Shown here in pieces: positions 46,182 to 55,002 of a stretch of 64,000 nt of DNA. The DNA is taken from the NCBI RefSeq assembly GCF_004342065.1, contig NZ_SLZU01000006.1:62001-126000 (forward strand), in the 5' to 3' direction. Below the pieces are notes generated by a model that worked only from the letters and a program-made list of their open reading frames with translations, ran no database searches and was not told the origin of the DNA. A program made the translations under genes and the position numbers. The stretch's first letter is position 1. Every line of letters begins with the position of its first letter. This DNA is from Primorskyibacter sedentarius (GTDB lineage Bacteria > Pseudomonadota > Alphaproteobacteria > Rhodobacterales > Rhodobacteraceae).

Positions 46182-47459
46182 TCAGGCCACTCGCGGCCGC
46201 AGACGCAGCTCTGCCGAACGGGCGTGACCCTCCATCCCCTCCATCCGACTGATCCGCGCGGTTCGAAGCGCCAATTCGTGCGAGGCGGCCGCGTCACAGC
46301 GTTGCCACGTCACGGTCTTGGTGAACTTGTGCACGGACAGACCGCCCGTATAGCGCGCGGCGCCACTGGTTGGCAGAACATGGTTCGGACCCGACGTCTT
46401 GTCCCCGAAAGCCACGGTCGTTTCCGCTCCCAGAAACAGCGAGCCATAGGCGGATAAACGCCCCAGCCACCACTCCAGATCCCCGGCCTGCACCTGAAGA
46501 TGTTCGGGTGCGTAGCGGTCTGAAACCTCTGCGGCCTCTTCCCGGCTGTCGCACAGGATCACCTCGGCGCGTTCATTCCACGCAATCCGCGCGGCAGAGG
46601 CGTTTGGCTCTGGCAAGCTGTCGATCAGGGATGAGACGCGGGCCAGAACGGCCTTGGCCAATGGCTCGTCGGTGGCGACCAGCCAGACCGGGCTGTCAGT
46701 GCCATGCTCGGCTTGGCTCACAAGGTCCCATGCCACGGTTTCAGCAGAGGCGGTGTGATCCGCAATGATCAGCGAATCCGTCGGCCCCGCAAACATGTCG
46801 ATGCCCACCTCGCCAAACAGCATCCGCTTGGCCTCTGCCACATAGCTGTTGCCGGGGCCGACAAGGATATCGGCTGGTTTGCCACCGAAAAGCCCCTTGG
46901 ACATGGCGGCAATCCCCTGCACACCGCCGAGGTTCAGGATCAGGTCCGCGCCACACAGATCCATCGCAAACACGATTGGATCCGGTATCCCGATATTGGG
47001 CCGCGTGGGCGACACGGCGGTGATATGCGGCACGCCTGCGACCTTGGCGGTCGTGATCGTCATCAGGGCGCTTGCGATGTGGCTGTAACGCCCCCCCGGC
47101 ACATAGCATCCGGCGCTGGAAACGGGGATCTGTTTCTGCCCCGCGATCAGGCCGGGGATCACCTCGACCTCGCATTCGCCCATGGTTGCCTTCTGCGCCT
47201 CTGCAAAGCGCTGAATATTGGCCTGCGCAAAACGGATGTCATCTTTCAGGCTCTCGGGCACACGGTCGCAGGCAGCCTCGCGGGCCGCGTCCGACAGCAC
47301 GATCTCTCCGGTCCAGCCGTCCAGCTTTTCGGCATAGTCGCGCACGGCCGCCTCGCCACCGCTTTCGATATTGGCCAGCATAATGGCGACGATATCCCGG
47401 ATATCCTTGTTTTCGACAGCGGGCCGGGGGGGCGCGGTTTTCAAATAGGTGATGGCCAT
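46182..47459 (-). CDS. HisD-paralogue zinc dehydrogenase
   Basis: A 425-residue member of the histidinol dehydrogenase family. The catalytic Glu319-His320 pair is in YAPEHLQV, and zinc ligand candidates are Gln249, His252 (SQAEHG), Asp353 and His412. The family oxidises an alcohol next to an amino or hydroxyl carbon to a carboxylate by two NAD-dependent steps; Roseobacter paralogues such as HpsN use sulfonates. Its place as last gene of an operon with a racemase, an aminotransferase and a CuyA-like lyase argues against a role in histidine synthesis. Its actual substrate is unknown. Confidence 0.85.
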   Translation of the reverse strand: MAITYLKTAPPRPAVENKDIRDIVAIMLANIESGGEAAVRDYAEKLDGWTGEIVLSDAAREAACDRVPESLKDDIRFAQANIQRFAEAQKATMGECEVEVIPGLIAGQKQIPVSSAGCYVPGGRYSHIASALMTITTAKVAGVPHITAVSPTRPNIGIPDPIVFAMDLCGADLILNLGGVQGIAAMSKGLFGGKPADILVGPGNSYVAEAKRMLFGEVGIDMFAGPTDSLIIADHTASAETVAWDLVSQAEHGTDSPVWLVATDEPLAKAVLARVSSLIDSLPEPNASAARIAWNERAEVILCDSREEAAEVSDRYAPEHLQVQAGDLEWWLGRLSAYGSLFLGAETTVAFGDKTSGPNHVLPTSGAARYTGGLSVHKFTKTVTWQRCDAAASHELALRTARISRMEGMEGHARSAELRLRPRVA

Positions 47460-47463
47460 GGGG

Positions 47464-48165
47464 TCAACTCGTTCTCGTCAGGGAATGGTCGTGGATTGCA
47501 TCTGCCAGCACATCGATCGTGTCGATGATCGGCACCGGGGCAGTGAGGGTGGGGGAGAGCAGCGAAAATTCCGAACATGCGACAAAGAGCATTGCCGCGC
47601 CGTTGCCCGCCAGTTCATCCGCAGCCTCTGACAGGATGCGTTGCGCGTCTGGCGTGACACCGTTGGCCTTGATATCGCGGATCGCGACGAGCATCCAGTC
47701 GGTATCCTGTGGCCAGAGCGCGTGCAGGCCCGCGCGGTCAAGATAGGGATCAAACACCCCGGTGCGCAGAACGGCGGGCGAGGCGAGGATTCCGATGCCA
47801 GCGCCCTTGCTGACGCGTTGCGCCGCGCGGGCCACCGACAGCTCCACCATGTTCAGCAGCGGGATATCTACGGCGGCCTGGATCTGTGGCGCGTAGTGAT
47901 GCGCGGTGTTGCAGGGCATGCCAAGCGCGGTGGCCCCGGCAGCCTCCAGCCGTTTGGCCATTTCGGCCATGACGGGCGAAGGGTCCGGGCCTGTACCTTC
48001 GATCAGATGCGCGATGCGAGAGGGCACCTGCGGGTTCATGTCGATGAGAAGCGGCAGGTGGTCCGCATCATCCGCAGCACAAACCGTCGCCATTACGCGC
48101 TGTTGCAGCAGGATGGTCGCCTCTGGCCCCATGCCGCCCAAAATGCCGGTGACATTGCGGCTCAT
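47464..48165 (-). CDS. Asp/Glu racemase-family protein
   Basis: A 233-residue amino acid racemase of the aspartate/glutamate type with both catalytic cysteines: Cys85 (GMPCNTAHH) and Cys197 (FVACSEFS). The N-terminal GILGGMGPEAT is typical. It is cofactor-independent and would interconvert D and L forms of an acidic amino acid, which in this operon could be cysteate. It overlaps the aminotransferase stop (ATGA) and ends 4 bases before the HisD-like gene. Confidence 0.9.
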   Translation of the reverse strand: MSRNVTGILGGMGPEATILLQQRVMATVCAADDADHLPLLIDMNPQVPSRIAHLIEGTGPDPSPVMAEMAKRLEAAGATALGMPCNTAHHYAPQIQAAVDIPLLNMVELSVARAAQRVSKGAGIGILASPAVLRTGVFDPYLDRAGLHALWPQDTDWMLVAIRDIKANGVTPDAQRILSEAADELAGNGAAMLFVACSEFSLLSPTLTAPVPIIDTIDVLADAIHDHSLTRTS

Positions 48166-49355
48166 GCCGCCACCTCGCTGACGGATTCGCAGATCAGCTC
48201 GCCAATCAGCGCGCAATCCGCTTCGGAGAAGCTGAGAGGCAGGCGCATGTCGAACAGCGTGCCCATGATGCGGTCGGTCTGCGGCAGGTCCTGCGCCGCC
48301 ACGTAGCGCCATGAATGGTGGGACGAGGTGAACCCCTTCGGCTCTTGCGCGCCGAACCATTTCAGCTCCACCCCGCGGGTCGCGGCGGCGTCGAGCGTCG
48401 CGCGGCATTGATCGGCAGTAAAATCCGGCAGCCGGAACTGGATGGAAGAGCCGACATGCTGCTCTGCCTCGGGCAGCGCGATCGTGGCGATGCGGTTATG
48501 GCCTTTCAGGGCACGTTCGACGACCTCGTAACGCGCATTCCAGCGGGTGATATTGCTGTCGAGGGCGCCAAGCTGCGGGCGCAGGATGGCGGCGCGCAAC
48601 GCGTCCATCCGGGCCGAGCAATTGGGCATCTCGTAGCGCGCGGCGTCAAAATCTTCGGGCGCAGGCCCGGCACCGTGCCGCCCGTACAGCATGTAGCTGC
48701 CCGAAAGGATCGTCGCCCGCGCCGCCAACTGTGGATCATTGGTGGTCAGGAACCCGCCTTCGCCGGAATTCATGTGCTTGTAGGTCTGGGTGGAAAAACA
48801 CGCAACTTTCCCGAAGTTTCCAGACCGCGTGCCGTGCCAGCGCGCACCCATCGTATGGGCGCAATCCTCGATCACGGTGACCTGTGCTGCGTCACAGATC
48901 TGCATCAGCCTGTTCATGTCGCACAGATGGCCACGCATATGGGAGAGCAGCAGAAACCGCGCGCCGGAGGCTTTGACTCTGGTGGTCAGATCGTCCAGAT
49001 CGAGCCGCAAGTTTTCGTCGATCTCCACCAGAACGGCCTTGCCACCCACGGCGTTGATGGCCCCGGGGACCGGCGCCAATGTAAAGCCATTGGTCAGGAT
49101 CGCGTCGCCGGGTTCAACCCCGCAGGCCCGCAATGCGATCTGGATCGCCTGACCACCGGAGGTGAGCGCAAGGCAATAGTCACTGCCTTGCCAATCGCGG
49201 TATTCCGCCTCCAGCAGCGCAACCTCACCCGCCTCGCCGGGGGTGAGGTTGTAGCGATGCAAACGGCCCGACTGCAGGACGGCAACAGCGGCGTCTATTG
49301 CCTCTGCGGGGATCGGCTCTTGCTGGGTGAACGAACCGGAAAACCTGCGTGCCAC
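48162..49355 (-). CDS. DegT/DnrJ/EryC1-family PLP aminotransferase
   Basis: A 397-residue fold-type I PLP enzyme. Lys193 in TYKHMNSGEGG is the Schiff-base lysine and Asp164 in VIEDCAHTMGA the pyridine contact. Members usually transaminate sugar nucleotides, but other substrates are known. Here no sugar-nucleotide genes are near; it belongs to the operon with the HisD-like and CuyA-like proteins. The start MARRFSG was taken as given by the reading frame, 14 bases after the CuyA-like stop. Confidence 0.88.
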   Translation of the reverse strand: MARRFSGSFTQQEPIPAEAIDAAVAVLQSGRLHRYNLTPGEAGEVALLEAEYRDWQGSDYCLALTSGGQAIQIALRACGVEPGDAILTNGFTLAPVPGAINAVGGKAVLVEIDENLRLDLDDLTTRVKASGARFLLLSHMRGHLCDMNRLMQICDAAQVTVIEDCAHTMGARWHGTRSGNFGKVACFSTQTYKHMNSGEGGFLTTNDPQLAARATILSGSYMLYGRHGAGPAPEDFDAARYEMPNCSARMDALRAAILRPQLGALDSNITRWNARYEVVERALKGHNRIATIALPEAEQHVGSSIQFRLPDFTADQCRATLDAAATRGVELKWFGAQEPKGFTSSHHSWRYVAAQDLPQTDRIMGTLFDMRLPLSFSEADCALIGELICESVSEVAA

Positions 49356-49369
49356 GGCTGCGCCCTTTC

Positions 49370-50383
49370 CTAGATGGTGACCCAGCGGTCGGAATTGTCG
49401 AAGGCGAAATCATACCCGCCAAGTGCCGCGGCACCGCCCGTGTGCAGAAAGACGATCCGTTCATCCTTGAATGCGCCCTTGCGCGCCAGATCGATCAGAC
49501 CGGCCGCGCCCTTGGCGGAATAGCAGGGATCCAGAAGTATGCCTTCCAGCTCTGCGAACATGCGGATCGCCTCGATCCCGCTTTCGGTGGGCAGGCCGTA
49601 GCCGTCGCCGACATAATCGGTATTTGCCACGACATCCTCGCGTTTCACCACACCGGCGCAGCCCAGTTTCTCGGCCGTCTTGCAGGCAAGGTCATAGACC
49701 ATCTGTTCCTGTTTGGGCTGCGGTGCGCGTGTGCCGATGCCAAGGATGGGGATCTGCGCGTTCATGGCGCACATGCCGGTCACCAGCCCCGCCTGCGTGC
49801 CCGAAGACCCGGTAGCATGCACGACACGGTCAATCCGCATCCCGGAATTGTTAACCTGCGCAAGCAGTTCAAAGGCGCAGTTCACGTAGCCCAAAGCGCC
49901 GGTCGGGTTGGACCCGCCCCCGGGGATGACATAGACATTGCGCCCCTCGGCGCGCTTCTTTTCGGCCGCGCGTTCCATTTCGCCGGGCATGTCGTGGCCA
50001 TTGGCGAATTTCTGGGTCGTGGCGCCGTGCAGATGGTCCAGCAGGACATTGCCGTTGGAGTTGTAATTGGCATCGTTATAGCCGGTGCGATCCTCAAGAA
50101 GGATGTGGCAGTCCAGCCCAAGCTTGGCAGCATAGGCGGCGGTCTGGCGGCCGTGATTGGTTTGGGTCGCGCCCTGTGTCATGACCATGTCGGCGCCCTG
50201 TTCGATCGCCTCGGCCATCAGGAATTCCAGCTTGCGGGTCTTGTTGCCCCCCGTCGACATGCCGGTGCAATCGTCCCGTTTTATCCAGACTTCAACGCCA
50301 AGCTCCTTGGACAGGCGTTTCATAGGCTCCAGCGGGGTGGGCAGATGTGCGAGGTGAACGCGCGGAAAGCGGGACAGGTGCAT
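49370..50383 (-). CDS. CuyA-like L-cysteate sulfo-lyase / D-cysteine desulfhydrase
   Basis: A 337-residue fold-type II PLP enzyme (ACC deaminase/D-cysteine desulfhydrase family). The motif [12 protein letters not shown] near residues 44-53 holds the PLP lysine; [15 protein letters not shown] and [15 protein letters not shown] bind the phosphate. The overall sequence closely follows Roseobacter CuyA, which splits L-cysteate to pyruvate, sulfite and ammonium; family members that use D-cysteine cannot be excluded. ATG 50383 was chosen for the MHLSRFPR start; an AAGGAT precedes it. Its 5' end overlaps the end of the upstream regulator gene. Confidence 0.88.
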
Positions 50384-51377
50384 GGGTGGATCCTTGTGGT
50401 TGTGAGTGGGAGTGGGAGGGCATTTCCTTGCCGGAAAGCTGCGCCCGCTGCCGCGAGGGCGTGATGCCGAATTCGGCCGTATAGAGTTTTGCAAAACCCG
50501 ATGGGCTTCCAAAGCCGCATGCGACAGAGATCTCTGCAATCGGCAATATTGTCTTTTCGATCAGCGTCCTGGCCCGGCGCAGGCGAAGCCCCCTGTAGAA
50601 GGCTGCCGGGGTTTGACCAAGGCAGGATTTGAATTTGCGTTCAAGCTGCCGGATCGACAGCCCGGCACATTTGGCAAGCTCTGCCAGTCGCAGCGGCTCT
50701 TCAATGTGATCTTCCATCGCCAGGATCACCGTCTCGATCCTGGCCAGGCGCAGGGCGTCGACATCGTTTTCGCTGCGCGGCTGCTGGGATTGGCCATCGC
50801 GGATACGCTCCATCAGCATGACGTTGCCAACGGCCTGTGCGAGCCGGGCAGAGCGCGGCGCGACGATCAGGCTGAGGATGACATCGGCTGTCGACAACAT
50901 ACCCGCCGCTGTGGTGATGCGACCGGTCCGCGTGAACAAGGGGCGCGTGCCGCCCTGTCCACAGGTCGCGATGGTCCGGACCTGCTGATCTTCCCAATGG
51001 GTGGTGATCTTGTCAACCTCGGGATGGAGCCGCTGCCATTGCGTGGCCGCGTCCGATAGCAGGATGATGTCCTGCCCCATACGTTCAAACCCGCGTAGCC
51101 TTGTGCGGATCTTCTCAAACCGCGCTGCAATACCTGCGCCGCCCAGCACCACAAGATGATCGGGCAAGGCAGCATCCCGGCGTGGCGGCGCCTGCGCGCG
51201 CACAAACATGCCGCCGATGCCTTCGACCTCCCCGGTCTGTGCGGTTGTGCAAAGCCGGATGTCAAAGCCGATCCCCTGACCAAGCCTGCCCGCGATGCGC
51301 AGCACGTCCTGCACCAGCGCAAGTTCAGTGGGCACAAAGCCCGGTTCGACAAGAATGCTGACCTGAACCGGCGTCAT
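50292..51377 (-). CDS. GlxA-type AraC-family regulator
   Basis: A 361-residue regulator: N-terminal DJ-1/PfpI-like domain (about residues 1-190, with HLVVLGGAG and IATCGQGG) and C-terminal AraC helix-turn-helix pair ([42 protein letters not shown]). Such proteins often sense methylated amines or related catabolites. The last 44 residues after SGKEM are proline/serine-rich, unlike the family, and overlap the cuyA-like gene by 92 bases, suggesting loss of the original stop. It starts 7 bases after the oxidoreductase stop. Confidence 0.88.
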
Positions 51378-51384
51378 GCTGGGG

Positions 51385-53820
51385 TCATCCGCGCATCCGG
51401 CTGTAGTCGGGATCGTAGGGGCTGGGCGCGATAACCTCGGCCGCGACCAGATCGCCATACATGTCCAGCTGCATCGTGCTGCCGGGGGTGGAAAGCTCTG
51501 GCGCGACAAAGCCGTAGGCCAGGTTCATGCCGACCCGGTGGCCCCAGTCGCCCGACGTGATCGTGCCCACAACCGTGTCGCCCTGCATGAGGGACGCACC
51601 GCCATGGGCGGGGGCATGGGTGGCGTCGATCCTGAGCGTGACGAGCTTCTTGCGCGGGCCGTCTTCGCGGCGTTGCAACAGCGCCTCTTTGCCGATGAAA
51701 TCGTCTTTCCCGGGCTTCACGAAGCGGTCAAGCGATGTTTCGAACGGGTCGAATTCGGTGATGAGATCGGCCTTCCAATGCAGGAAGCCTTTTTCCATCC
51801 GCATCGACTCCACCGCGCGCGCGCCAAAGAGCTTCAGCCCATGCGCCTCGCCTGCTTTGCGCAAGGCAAGGTAGGCCGCGTAGACAGAGGCGTTGGGAAC
51901 GTGGATTTCGTAGGCCAGTTCGCCCGAGAAGCTGACGCCAAGAACGGTGGCAGGGGCAAAGCCTACGAAACATTCGCGGACGCTGAGCCACGGGAACGCC
52001 TCTTTCGACCAATCACCGCGGGAGCAGGCGGACAGGACGGCGCGCGCCTTGGGGCCGGCCAGAACAAGGATCGTCTGATCGTTGGTCAGGCTGCGGATCT
52101 GCACATCCTCATCCGGGTCCAGATGCGCGGTCAGCCAGTCCATGTCGTGATACTCGCTGGCGGCCGCAGACCCGTACCAGACCCGCGCAGGGCCGCGATC
52201 AGACGCTGGCAGGTTGGCGATGGTGGCCTCGCCCTTGATGTTGCCATGGTGGTTCAAAAGGTATCCCAGACCCACGCGGCCATCGCGCCTTGTCACCGCG
52301 CCGCAGAACATCCGGTCAAGGAAAGCGTGGCGGTCGGCGCCGGTAATCTCGAACCCGTTGAACCCGTTGACCTCGCAGAGGCCCACGTTTTCCTGCACGT
52401 TCTTCACCTCGGCCGCGACCAGATCGAAAGCTTCGTCGAAATTGAAGCTGAGCGTGGGGTGAAAATCCGGGTCGGGCTTGATGTAATCCACGCGTTCCCA
52501 GCCATTGACCACGGTGAACTCTGCGCCCTCGGCGGCAAGGATGGGCGTCAGCGGTGTGGTCTTGGCAGGGCGCCCGGCGGGGCGGTGTTCATGCGGGAAG
52601 TGAAAACGGAATTCGTTCTGATAATCCTCTATCGCCTTCAGCGCGGTCAGTTCCACATTCGCGTGGCCGGTAAAGCGGCGCGGATCGATGCACCACGTGT
52701 CATAGCATGCCTCGCCATGCACGATCTGCTGCGCCAGCATCCAGCCGTGGCCACCGCCTTCGCCCAGACCGGCCCGCAACCCGATGATGCAGAAAGCGTT
52801 GCGCTTTCCGGGAATGGGTCCAACCAGCGGCGCCCCGTCGATCGTATAGGTGATGGGGCCGTTCACGACCGCGCGGATCCCGGTTTCCTGAAGCGCGGGC
52901 ATCCGTTCAAACGCGCCTTCCAGCACGTCCATCACACGGTCCAGATCGTCCGGGCACAGCGCGTTGACGAATTTCGGGTCGATCCCGTCCATGCCCCAGG
53001 TCTTGCAGCCCTGTTCATAGAAGCCGACCAGCAGCCCGCCCTTTTCCTGACGGCTGTAGTAATCCGAGATCGGGCAGCGCAGAAGCGGCATCCGGTGGCC
53101 AGCCACGGCAATGGCGGGGATGTCTTCGGTCAGGAAATACTGGTGCTCCATCGAGGCGACGGGGTGATGCACCCCCATCATCGCGCCGACCTCGTTCACA
53201 CGGTAGCCACAGGCATTGACCACGATGTCGCAATCGATATCGCCCTTTTCCGTATGGACCGTCCAGGTGTCATCCTTGTGCTGGGTCAGGGCCGTGACGG
53301 GGGTTTCGCGATAGACCTCTGCCCCGGCCTTGCGGGCGTGATAGGCCAGCGCCTGACACAGCTGCGCCGGGTCGATATCGCCATCCAGCGGGTCCCAAAG
53401 CCCGCCCAGAAGATTGGTGGTCGAGATCAGCGGATGACGGCGGGCGCATTCCTCTGCATCGATCACTTCGAATTCAACACCCATGCCGCGCGCCATAGAG
53501 GCAAAGTGCCGATAGCCCTGCATCTGCGCCTCGGTATTGGCCAGCCGGATGCCGCCATCCGCATGATGATAGTTGATCGGATATTCCGGATCTTCGGAGA
53601 GCCGTTTGTAAAGCTCGATCGAATGCGTCTTCAGCCCCACCATCGTCTGGTTGGCGCCGAAATTCGTCACCTGCGCGGCAGAGTGCCATGTGGTGCCCGA
53701 GGTCAGCTCGTTCCGCTCGACCAGCACCACATCTGTCCAGCCTTCCTGAGTAAGATGGTAGAGCGTCGAACAACCGGCGATACCGCCACCGATGACAACA
53801 ACCTTGGTCCGCGATTTCAT
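51385..53820 (-). CDS. FAD-dependent oxidoreductase fused to GcvT domains (DMGDH/sarcosine dehydrogenase type)
   Basis: An 811-residue protein. The N-terminal FAD-binding oxidoreductase (VVVIGGGIAGCSTLYHLTQEG, GxGxxG fold) extends to about residue 400, followed by a linker domain and GcvT-like folate-binding domains from about 440 to the end (NGFNGFEITGADRHAFLDRM, FGARAVESMRMEKGFLHW). This layout is that of dimethylglycine and sarcosine dehydrogenases, which remove N-methyl groups and transfer them to tetrahydrofolate. It is the first gene of the operon, after a LysR gene. Confidence 0.9.
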   Translation of the reverse strand: MKSRTKVVVIGGGIAGCSTLYHLTQEGWTDVVLVERNELTSGTTWHSAAQVTNFGANQTMVGLKTHSIELYKRLSEDPEYPINYHHADGGIRLANTEAQMQGYRHFASMARGMGVEFEVIDAEECARRHPLISTTNLLGGLWDPLDGDIDPAQLCQALAYHARKAGAEVYRETPVTALTQHKDDTWTVHTEKGDIDCDIVVNACGYRVNEVGAMMGVHHPVASMEHQYFLTEDIPAIAVAGHRMPLLRCPISDYYSRQEKGGLLVGFYEQGCKTWGMDGIDPKFVNALCPDDLDRVMDVLEGAFERMPALQETGIRAVVNGPITYTIDGAPLVGPIPGKRNAFCIIGLRAGLGEGGGHGWMLAQQIVHGEACYDTWCIDPRRFTGHANVELTALKAIEDYQNEFRFHFPHEHRPAGRPAKTTPLTPILAAEGAEFTVVNGWERVDYIKPDPDFHPTLSFNFDEAFDLVAAEVKNVQENVGLCEVNGFNGFEITGADRHAFLDRMFCGAVTRRDGRVGLGYLLNHHGNIKGEATIANLPASDRGPARVWYGSAAASEYHDMDWLTAHLDPDEDVQIRSLTNDQTILVLAGPKARAVLSACSRGDWSKEAFPWLSVRECFVGFAPATVLGVSFSGELAYEIHVPNASVYAAYLALRKAGEAHGLKLFGARAVESMRMEKGFLHWKADLITEFDPFETSLDRFVKPGKDDFIGKEALLQRREDGPRKKLVTLRIDATHAPAHGGASLMQGDTVVGTITSGDWGHRVGMNLAYGFVAPELSTPGSTMQLDMYGDLVAAEVIAPSPYDPDYSRMRG

Positions 53821-54027: not shown

Positions 54028-55002
54028 TCAGGTCAGAAGTTTGAAACTGTCCGAAAGCCATGGGTCGCTTTGATGAAAGGGCGTGATGGCGCGATCCCGG
54101 ATCAGGCTGCGGATCTTGGCATCGACCAGCTCGATCACCGATTGCGAACAGTCCGGCGTCGAGACAAGCAGCAGCGTCCGCGAGAAGCTTTTCCCCGGAA
54201 AGCGCCGCATCTGCACCTTGGGGTGGAACCGTTTTGCGCGTGAGAATAGCAGGGGCGTGGTGATCGTCCACCCCGCTTCGGCCGCGACCATTGCCATCAG
54301 CGTCTGGTTGTTGCTGCATTCGAACCGGTGCGGGGAGGACACCCCGATGCGGCGAAGCTGCGATTCAATCTGCCGCGCGATCATCAGGCTGGCTGAAAAC
54401 CGCAGGAAGGGCAGTTTCGTGCGTCCAGCCACGACGTCTTCGAGCGACTCTTCGCATCCTCTGGGCAGGACCACGACAAACGGATCACGCAGAAGGGTGC
54501 GATCCTGCAGATCGGTCAGGCTGTCCGTGGGGGCGGTGATAATGCCCAGATCAAGCTGCCGGTTGCGCAGCATCTCGATGATCATATGGCTGGAATCGGT
54601 GTGATACATGAAGTTGCAGGCGGGCATGCTGGAGGAAAGAAATACCGCCAGTTCCGGCACGATATCGCTGTCGAAATCCTCGATCGTGCCAAGCCGGAGG
54701 TTGCGGGCCTCGGTCACGCTGCCTGCCGACGCTTCGGCCTTGGCCTTGCGGATCGACAACAGCGCGTCGTCGATATTGCGCAGAAACGCGCGGCCCTTCG
54801 GCGTCAGGACCATGGGCCGCCGGGCATGGTTGAACAGCTCCACCCCCAGATTGTCCTCCAGGTTGCGCAGGTGGTGCGACACGGTGCTCAACGTCAGCCC
54901 GGTTTCCTGCGAGGCCGCCTGAAGCGAGCCTTTGCGGGCGCAGATCTGGAACAGCTCCAGCGATTTGAGGCTGAGGTCTTTGGGGGCGGATTTGCGAGGC
55001 AT
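54028..55002 (-). CDS. LysR-family transcriptional regulator
   Basis: A 324-residue LysR protein. The winged helix lies at about residues 10-70 (LKSLELFQICARKGSLQAASQETGLTLSTVSHHLRNLEDNLGVELF) and the periplasmic-binding-like effector domain beyond 95. It is transcribed in the same direction as, and 207 bases before, the oxidoreductase operon, with a 13-base element repeated in front of both. It probably controls that operon. Confidence 0.92.
   Translation of the reverse strand: MPRKSAPKDLSLKSLELFQICARKGSLQAASQETGLTLSTVSHHLRNLEDNLGVELFNHARRPMVLTPKGRAFLRNIDDALLSIRKAKAEASAGSVTEARNLRLGTIEDFDSDIVPELAVFLSSSMPACNFMYHTDSSHMIIEMLRNRQLDLGIITAPTDSLTDLQDRTLLRDPFVVVLPRGCEESLEDVVAGRTKLPFLRFSASLMIARQIESQLRRIGVSSPHRFECSNNQTLMAMVAAEAGWTITTPLLFSRAKRFHPKVQMRRFPGKSFSRTLLLVSTPDCSQSVIELVDAKIRSLIRDRAITPFHQSDPWLSDSFKLLT

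Follow-up and report, generated by a model that had tools for sequence, protein, structure and literature searches.

A window of 64,000 nucleotides from Primorskyibacter sedentarius (NZ_SLZU01000006.1 of assembly GCF_004342065.1, positions 62,001 to 126,000) carries on its minus strand a run of six open reading frames (ORFs), at window positions 46182 to 53820, which we analyzed as a candidate operon for the degradation of cysteinolate (2-amino-3-hydroxypropanesulfonate). All coordinates in Table 1 are window positions. According to the ORF listing of the window, the intergenic gaps in transcription order are 7, −92, 14, −4, and 4 bases, where the negative value of −92 is the overlap of the AraC and CuyA genes. 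This agrees with an earlier note on this DNA (the original prediction), which described a six-gene operon with genes spaced by at most 14 bases or overlapping. All of its ORFs were present; the text of that note names five enzymes, and the sixth gene encodes an AraC-family regulator. HpsN2 is the name that we coined in this analysis for the clade of the dehydrogenase P0001, apart from canonical HpsN.

Table 1. Genes of the candidate cysteinolate operon and the regulator gene upstream of it
Predicted product	Position	Strand	Length	Remarks
HpsN2 (P0001), HisD superfamily, predicted Zn/nicotinamide adenine dinucleotide (NAD)-dependent sulfonate-alcohol dehydrogenase	46182-47459	-	425 aa	
CuyB, cysteate racemase (P0002)	47464-48165	-	233 aa	NF052483
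DegT/DnrJ-family pyridoxal phosphate (PLP) aminotransferase	48162-49355	-	397 aa	GTG start; PF01041, 188 bits
CuyA, D-cysteate sulfo-lyase (PLP)	49370-50383	-	337 aa	NF052482
AraC-family regulator, GbdR-like	50292-51377	-	361 aa	From ATG at 51377; PF12833
Dimethylglycine dehydrogenase (DMGDH)-like flavin adenine dinucleotide (FAD)- and folate-binding N-demethylase	51385-53820	-	811 aa	DAO+FAO_M+GCV_T+GCV_T_C
LysR-type regulator, possible operon regulator	54028-55002	-		PF00126/PF03466

The dehydrogenase had originally been described as a HisD paralogue. P0001 does fall in the HisD superfamily, and NCBIfam TIGR00069 alone would label it HisD (418 bits, cut-off 243.8). When compared with solved structures, it scored 533 bits against the (R)-2,3-dihydroxypropane-1-sulfonate (DHPS) dehydrogenase 8wwe (from Ruegeria pomeroyi by literature; 61.2% identity), 488 bits against CpHpsN (8v35 of C. 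pinatubonensis; 54.5% identity), and at most 242 bits against true HisD. HpsN has the motif G-R-Y-A/S-H where HisD has G-S-A-P-L; its key residues are the sulfonate/Zn residue His126 together with Glu318, His319, and Asp352, and its Zn is bound by Gln248, His251, and His411 (PMC11382572). P0001 carries GRYSH in place of G-S-A-P-L (GGRYSH at 122-127), plus E319, H320, D353, K354, H360, and H412; Glu318, His319, Asp352, and all three Zn ligands of HpsN are kept. Because of this motif, the key residues, and the ranking of solved relatives, P0001 is, by sequence, an HpsN-family enzyme, not HisD. The earlier label thus holds at the level of the superfamily, but the protein belongs to the HpsN branch, which oxidizes sulfonated alcohols; that HisD relatives acting on such alcohols were already known had been missed. 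HpsN2, with the HpsN His, would share with HisD a chemistry in which an amino alcohol loses four electrons and becomes an amino acid. Another HisD-like gene, on contig C16 of the same genome and 36% identical to P0001, is presumably the biosynthetic HisD.

The active site is conserved among homologues (18 redundant sequences of 99 were removed before counting). Nine compared positions, comprising Zn, catalytic, and sulfonate residues, are kept in 51 of 51 homologues whose genes are linked to Cuy genes, and the motif His is found in all 51 and in 13 of 13 HpsP-linked sequences. Ser226 is replaced by Thr in P0001, in 8wwe, and in all 51 Cuy-linked and 13 HpsP-linked homologues.

The racemase P0002 scored 277.3 bits against the CuyB model NF052483 (cut-off 190), and a search of the genome at E 1e-30 gave no second match. 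The motif pair with Cys85 and Cys197, which we take to be the two catalytic cysteines, is retained in 78 of 79 copies longer than 200 aa. The lyase scored 520.3 bits against the CuyA model NF052482 (cut-off 450) and was the sole match in the genome above this cut-off. Against the D-cysteine desulfhydrase equivalogs it stayed under the cut-offs (305.8, 279.2, and 279.0 bits versus 429, 469, and 610), and it exceeded that of the broader subfamily TIGR01275 (329.1 bits, cut-off 289.4); a side activity of this CuyA on D-cysteine may exist. Both proteins therefore pass cysteate-specific NCBIfam cut-offs, in support of the racemase and CuyA-like lyase that had been proposed for cysteate. CuyB racemizes cysteate in both directions, the D form being the one that CuyA prefers (PMC11382572, itself citing two papers).

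To place HpsN2, we built a quick tree of 81 sequences, which gave long-branch warnings, with CpHpsN among the flagged sequences. The HpsP-linked sequences and 8wwe form the canonical group (16 rows, support 99), and the HpsN2 clade (56 rows, support 88) includes all 51 Cuy-linked sequences, a count that is biased since most of these rows came from the CuyB search. A single change on the tree suffices to explain the HpsP-linked and Cuy-linked labels. We then turned to a sample not chosen by Cuy genes, namely 61 family genomes, our own included, in which HpsN-family genes were defined by at least 56% identity. Among the 29 genes found, 13 adjoin HpsP, 8 adjoin CuyB (7 also CuyA), 8 adjoin neither, and none adjoins both. 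HpsP is a neighbor in 13/15 canonical genes and in 0/13 HpsN2 genes; for Cuy genes the counts are 0/15 and 8/13 (7 also with CuyA), or 7/12 for CuyB if the gene of the window is excluded. One of the 29 genes falls outside both clades. The association of clade and neighbor gave Fisher p values of 3e-6 for HpsP and 4e-4 for Cuy, with relatedness ignored.

A third HisD-like group was noticed in the same genomes. The group is 44-50% identical to P0001 and has GGKFPM replacing GGRYSH; its member in our genome (L086:7543-8973, contig C13) adjoins a sugar-type ATP-binding cassette (ABC) transporter. Matches in this identity band occur in 26 of the 61 genomes, and the HpsN His is missing in 7/7 sequences compared, true HisD among the seven.

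We also examined the gene neighborhoods of CuyB. The racemase query matched 359 loci of the genome collection, and the best 80 were used. An HpsN-family gene lies within 4 kb in 48 of the 80 loci (28 adjacent, 20 at 2-4 kb). The 28 loci with adjacent HpsN2 contain CuyA in every case, the DMGDH-like gene in 22, and DegT in 17. The complete six-gene order is found in 8 loci (L006, L007, L013, L022, L023, L027, L030, and L031), in two of which the end gene is cut by a contig end. With the dehydrogenase adjoining the racemase in 28/80 loci and the complete order in 8, the grouping exceeds chance. Where CuyB and HpsN2 adjoin each other, 26 of the 28 loci also have a LysR homologue (42-79% identity); in the window, the LysR gene lies 207 bases upstream of the operon on the same strand. 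The AraC/cuyA overlap, 92 bases in the window (50292-50383), is retained in 11 related loci with 77-89 bases over the aligned part, and may couple translation of the regulator and the enzyme.

HpsP was found in none of the 80 CuyB loci and not in the window, while the same query detects it beside 13 HpsN genes. This bears on a rival explanation, rather unlikely in our view, in which HpsN2 is a second DHPS dehydrogenase and DHPS is converted to sulfolactate, by SlcD to sulfopyruvate, and by an aminotransferase, perhaps DegT, to cysteate for CuyB and CuyA. Such a role would fit the activity of the characterized HpsN enzymes on R-DHPS (PMC11382572) and the active-site residues, which are the same in HpsN2 and HpsN. 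Besides the lack of HpsP, the genome of P. sedentarius speaks against it, as it already holds a separate cluster of HpsN, HpsP, and a tripartite ATP-independent periplasmic (TRAP) transporter, with an HpsN 61% identical to P0001; therefore, HpsN2 is not needed for DHPS. No HpsO was seen directly after HpsP in this cluster, where no HpsO reference sequence was used as a query. GlcD/SlcD-like genes were found in 0/80 CuyB loci and also in none of the loci L119-L136, six HpsP-linked ones among them; this comparison used three queries from our genome and left L140 aside. Since canonical HpsN loci also lack such genes, their absence does not discriminate and is weak evidence against the DHPS explanation. 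The FAD/GcvT protein of the operon was considered as SlcD and rejected, being of the DAO+GcvT (DMGDH) type, not the GlcD type.

The transport genes also speak against the DHPS explanation. A taurine-type substrate-binding protein occurs in 33 of the 80 CuyB loci, each with an HpsN-family gene (15/28 with adjacent HpsN2, 18/20 with the gene at 2-4 kb, and 0/32 without it), and the HpsN-bearing loci show no DHPS-type TRAP match. Cysteinolate is a hydroxymethyl taurine. The ligand of this binding protein is only a guess from sequence, because the reference scored 161.8 bits against its best model, TIGR01729 (taurine binding), under the cut-off of 304. In our genome, a TauABC set lies elsewhere, on contig C16. 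A co-occurrence of these genes with a sulfite exporter had been suggested as a check; the dehydrogenase, racemase, and lyase do recur without HpsP, often with the taurine-type transporter. A search of our genome for YeiH gave no match. A run that is apparently self-contained was observed at L046:7722-16778, in the order CuyA, DegT, CuyB, betaine-type ABC transporter, HpsN2, and YeiH-like exporter, next to a LysR gene that is divergent. The scores behind the labels YeiH-like and choline/betaine-type stayed under the cut-offs of their models.

The DegT gene is present in 28/80 CuyB loci, and also in the divergent clusters L122 and L125 at 52-59% identity. Its product has a TYKHMN motif with Lys193, presumably the PLP site, and a motif of this type is kept in 24 of 28 long copies. 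The best solved relative, 3-amino-5-hydroxybenzoate synthase, reached only 103 bits. A role as a sugar aminotransferase was considered but is disfavored by the place of the gene, which recurs between cuyA and cuyB. Judging from sequence and position, DegT may be the missing sulfopyruvate/cysteate aminotransferase, or may interconvert 2-oxo-3-hydroxypropanesulfonate and cysteinolate. The former would suit the DHPS explanation, as in R. pomeroyi the aminotransferase of the CuyA route has yet to be identified (PMC11382572) and DegT stands between cuyA and cuyB, but DegT was not found in 52 of the 80 CuyB loci. In two loci with DegT and CuyB that lack HpsN2 (L032 and L050), no obvious substitute dehydrogenase was recognized by eye.

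The DMGDH-like protein scored 487 bits against the solved mitochondrial DMGDH and shares the DAO, FAO_M, GCV_T, and GCV_T_C domains along its full length, but the predicted copy of the operon is embedded among cysteate genes; four other matches in the genome are each at most 39% identical. Its presence raises a second alternative, that the full operon degrades N-methylated cysteinolate (or cysteate), up to cysteinolate betaine, a marine zwitterionic sulfobetaine, with demethylation by the DMGDH-like enzyme, in some genomes together with an MttB-like one, ahead of HpsN2, CuyB, and CuyA. The loci with adjacent HpsN2 are in line with this, 22/28 having the DMGDH-like gene and 6/28 an MttB-like gene, as are the GbdR-like AraC regulator of the operon (119.7 bits against the GbdR model, under its cut-off of 480) and the betaine-type ABC transporter beside HpsN2 in L046. 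The DMGDH-like gene is, however, found in 0/20 CuyB loci with HpsN at 2-4 kb and in 2/32 without HpsN. Close homologues (at least 57% identity) occur in 19 of the 61 genomes, of which only 3 (G000, G007, and G004) have Cuy or HpsN genes close by, and for this reason an ordinary DMGDH appears, on sequence evidence, no less likely than a demethylase specific to cysteinolate. Moreover, the copy at L186 adjoins a BCCT-type transporter and a Rieske-type enzyme (recognized by eye), and a literature search on such names returned no cysteate or cysteinolate betaine. An MttB-like gene is paired with the DMGDH homologue in 4/11 loci (1.5 kb flanks), and no betaine cluster is evident around the MttB-like gene of our own genome (contig C2), as seen from ORF heads. 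We regard degradation of N-methylated forms as distinctly unlikely. What keeps it alive is a cluster in G004, which groups MttB-like and DMGDH genes with HpsN. The suggestion that the FAD/GcvT enzyme serves related N-substituted forms agrees with its frequency beside adjacent HpsN2, but the gene is usually unlinked to the module elsewhere.

Two loci may be described here in their own right. The G004 cluster (L168:6804-15999) contains an MttB-like gene, a DMGDH homologue (65%), a ProX/V/W-like betaine transporter, a canonical-clade HpsN, and a short-chain dehydrogenase/reductase, with no Cuy genes; it may serve to demethylate an N-methylated sulfonate and to oxidize its alcohol group. In Ruegeria pomeroyi SZCCDBG043 (L014), the DMGDH-like gene stands directly before CuyB, without HpsN2 or DegT, and CuyA, TRAP, and alpha/beta hydrolase genes are some kb distant.

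Turning to the proposal that we favor, we consider, from gene content and context, that the operon is probably a cysteinolate degradation module. HpsN2 would oxidize the primary alcohol of cysteinolate to L-cysteate in two NAD-dependent steps, as HisD does on histidinol and HpsN on R-DHPS; CuyB would convert L-cysteate to D-cysteate; and CuyA would cleave D-cysteate to pyruvate, NH4+, and sulfite. DegT and the DMGDH-like enzyme would be accessories, perhaps broadening the substrate range or linking pools. The configuration of R-sulfolactate matches that of L-cysteate. L-cysteate occupies the product site of CpHpsN in essentially the way that R-sulfolactate does, and HpsN enzymes are R-selective (PMC11382572); the Zn site thus tolerates an amino group. 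By analogy, the simplest expected scheme is from R-cysteinolate to L-cysteate, because of this selectivity and of the product site that takes L-cysteate, and a racemase would then be needed ahead of the D-preferring CuyA. We infer the substrate, direction, and stereochemistry of the HpsN2 module in this way. The natural compound is named D-cysteinolic acid and may be this R enantiomer. The path originally predicted, from cysteinolate through cysteate to pyruvate and sulfite, is consistent with the families and the linkage, but it overlooked the HpsN precedent, whose stereochemistry favors R-cysteinolate.

Several points weigh against the cysteinolate proposal. The support of the HpsN2 clade is moderate (88 in the quick tree with its long-branch warnings). 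Five of the 13 sampled HpsN2 genes are without a Cuy neighbor, no CuyB was detected at E 1e-30 in four of the genomes with these five genes (G031, G041, G049, and G053), and 32/80 CuyB loci have no HpsN-family gene in the available stretch, some being ended by contig ends. In G049 (L128:7754-13908), HpsN2 directly follows TauABC, with an aminotransferase recognized by eye; this looks like a taurine cluster, and cysteate may take another route there. No transporter or exporter adjoins the operon of the window, and the search for YeiH came back empty, a result that proves little. Finally, the positions that split HpsP-linked from Cuy-linked sequences are Y48W, C142V, Y378F, T321Q/H, and F205Y (CpHpsN numbering), and W49, V143, and F379, which are invariant in HpsN2 whereas alphaproteobacterial HpsN does not have them fixed, are also present in CpHpsN, a proven DHPS enzyme. 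We therefore dropped Y48W, C142V, and Y378F as substrate determinants, and the compared residues yield no feature that separates cysteinolate from DHPS as a substrate.

A further explanation is that HpsN2 acts on another sulfonated amino alcohol, or in turnover of an aminolipid headgroup. PMC11631085 describes cysteinolic acid as the headgroup of a sulfur-containing aminolipid of roseobacters, for which the original paper has an aminopropane sulfonic acid (PMC8319176). The linkage of HpsN2 to CuyA, CuyB, and import genes points to the breakdown of a compound taken up from outside, and we hold this explanation to be highly improbable.

Compared with known systems, HpsN2 shares GRY[AS]H, Zn, and the catalytic and sulfonate-binding residues with the HpsN enzymes 8v35 and 8wwe, but it lies in its own clade, and its gene neighbors are CuyA/CuyB, often together with a taurine-type ABC transporter, not HpsP. 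The CuyA route of R. pomeroyi and Roseovarius nubinhibens likewise uses an HpsN-type dehydrogenase, CuyB, and CuyA, and yields pyruvate, ammonia, and sulfite; from DHPS, the published route requires HpsN, HpsO, HpsP, SlcD, and an aminotransferase (PMC11382572), and in R. pomeroyi the genes from hpsR to slcD are SPO0590-0598 (PMC4334477). The CuyB loci differ in having no HpsP, and the proposed direct step from dehydrogenase to cysteate would skip sulfolactate and sulfopyruvate. Our literature search returned no paper naming cysteinolate catabolic genes, and a 2022 cysteinolic acid review and a 2024 J. Biol. Chem. CuyB paper may say more; in the available sections of PMC11382572 we met no report of a cysteinolate assay with CpHpsN. 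The enzyme families are known, and none of the literature found describes a direct HpsN2-CuyB-CuyA module that lacks HpsP, though the 2022 review may propose it.

Cysteinolic acid reaches cellular levels in microalgae in the range of dimethylsulfoniopropionate and DHPS, and its consumption by bacteria was suggested by its discoverers (PMC8703288). If the proposal is true, it predicts precisely what the enzyme does, namely that a dehydrogenase for amino alcohols acts on a sulfonate. HpsN-family matches that are counted as DHPS genes may then partly be cysteinolate genes, and hpsN2-cuyB-cuyA would provide a three-gene marker for cysteinolate turnover in ocean data.

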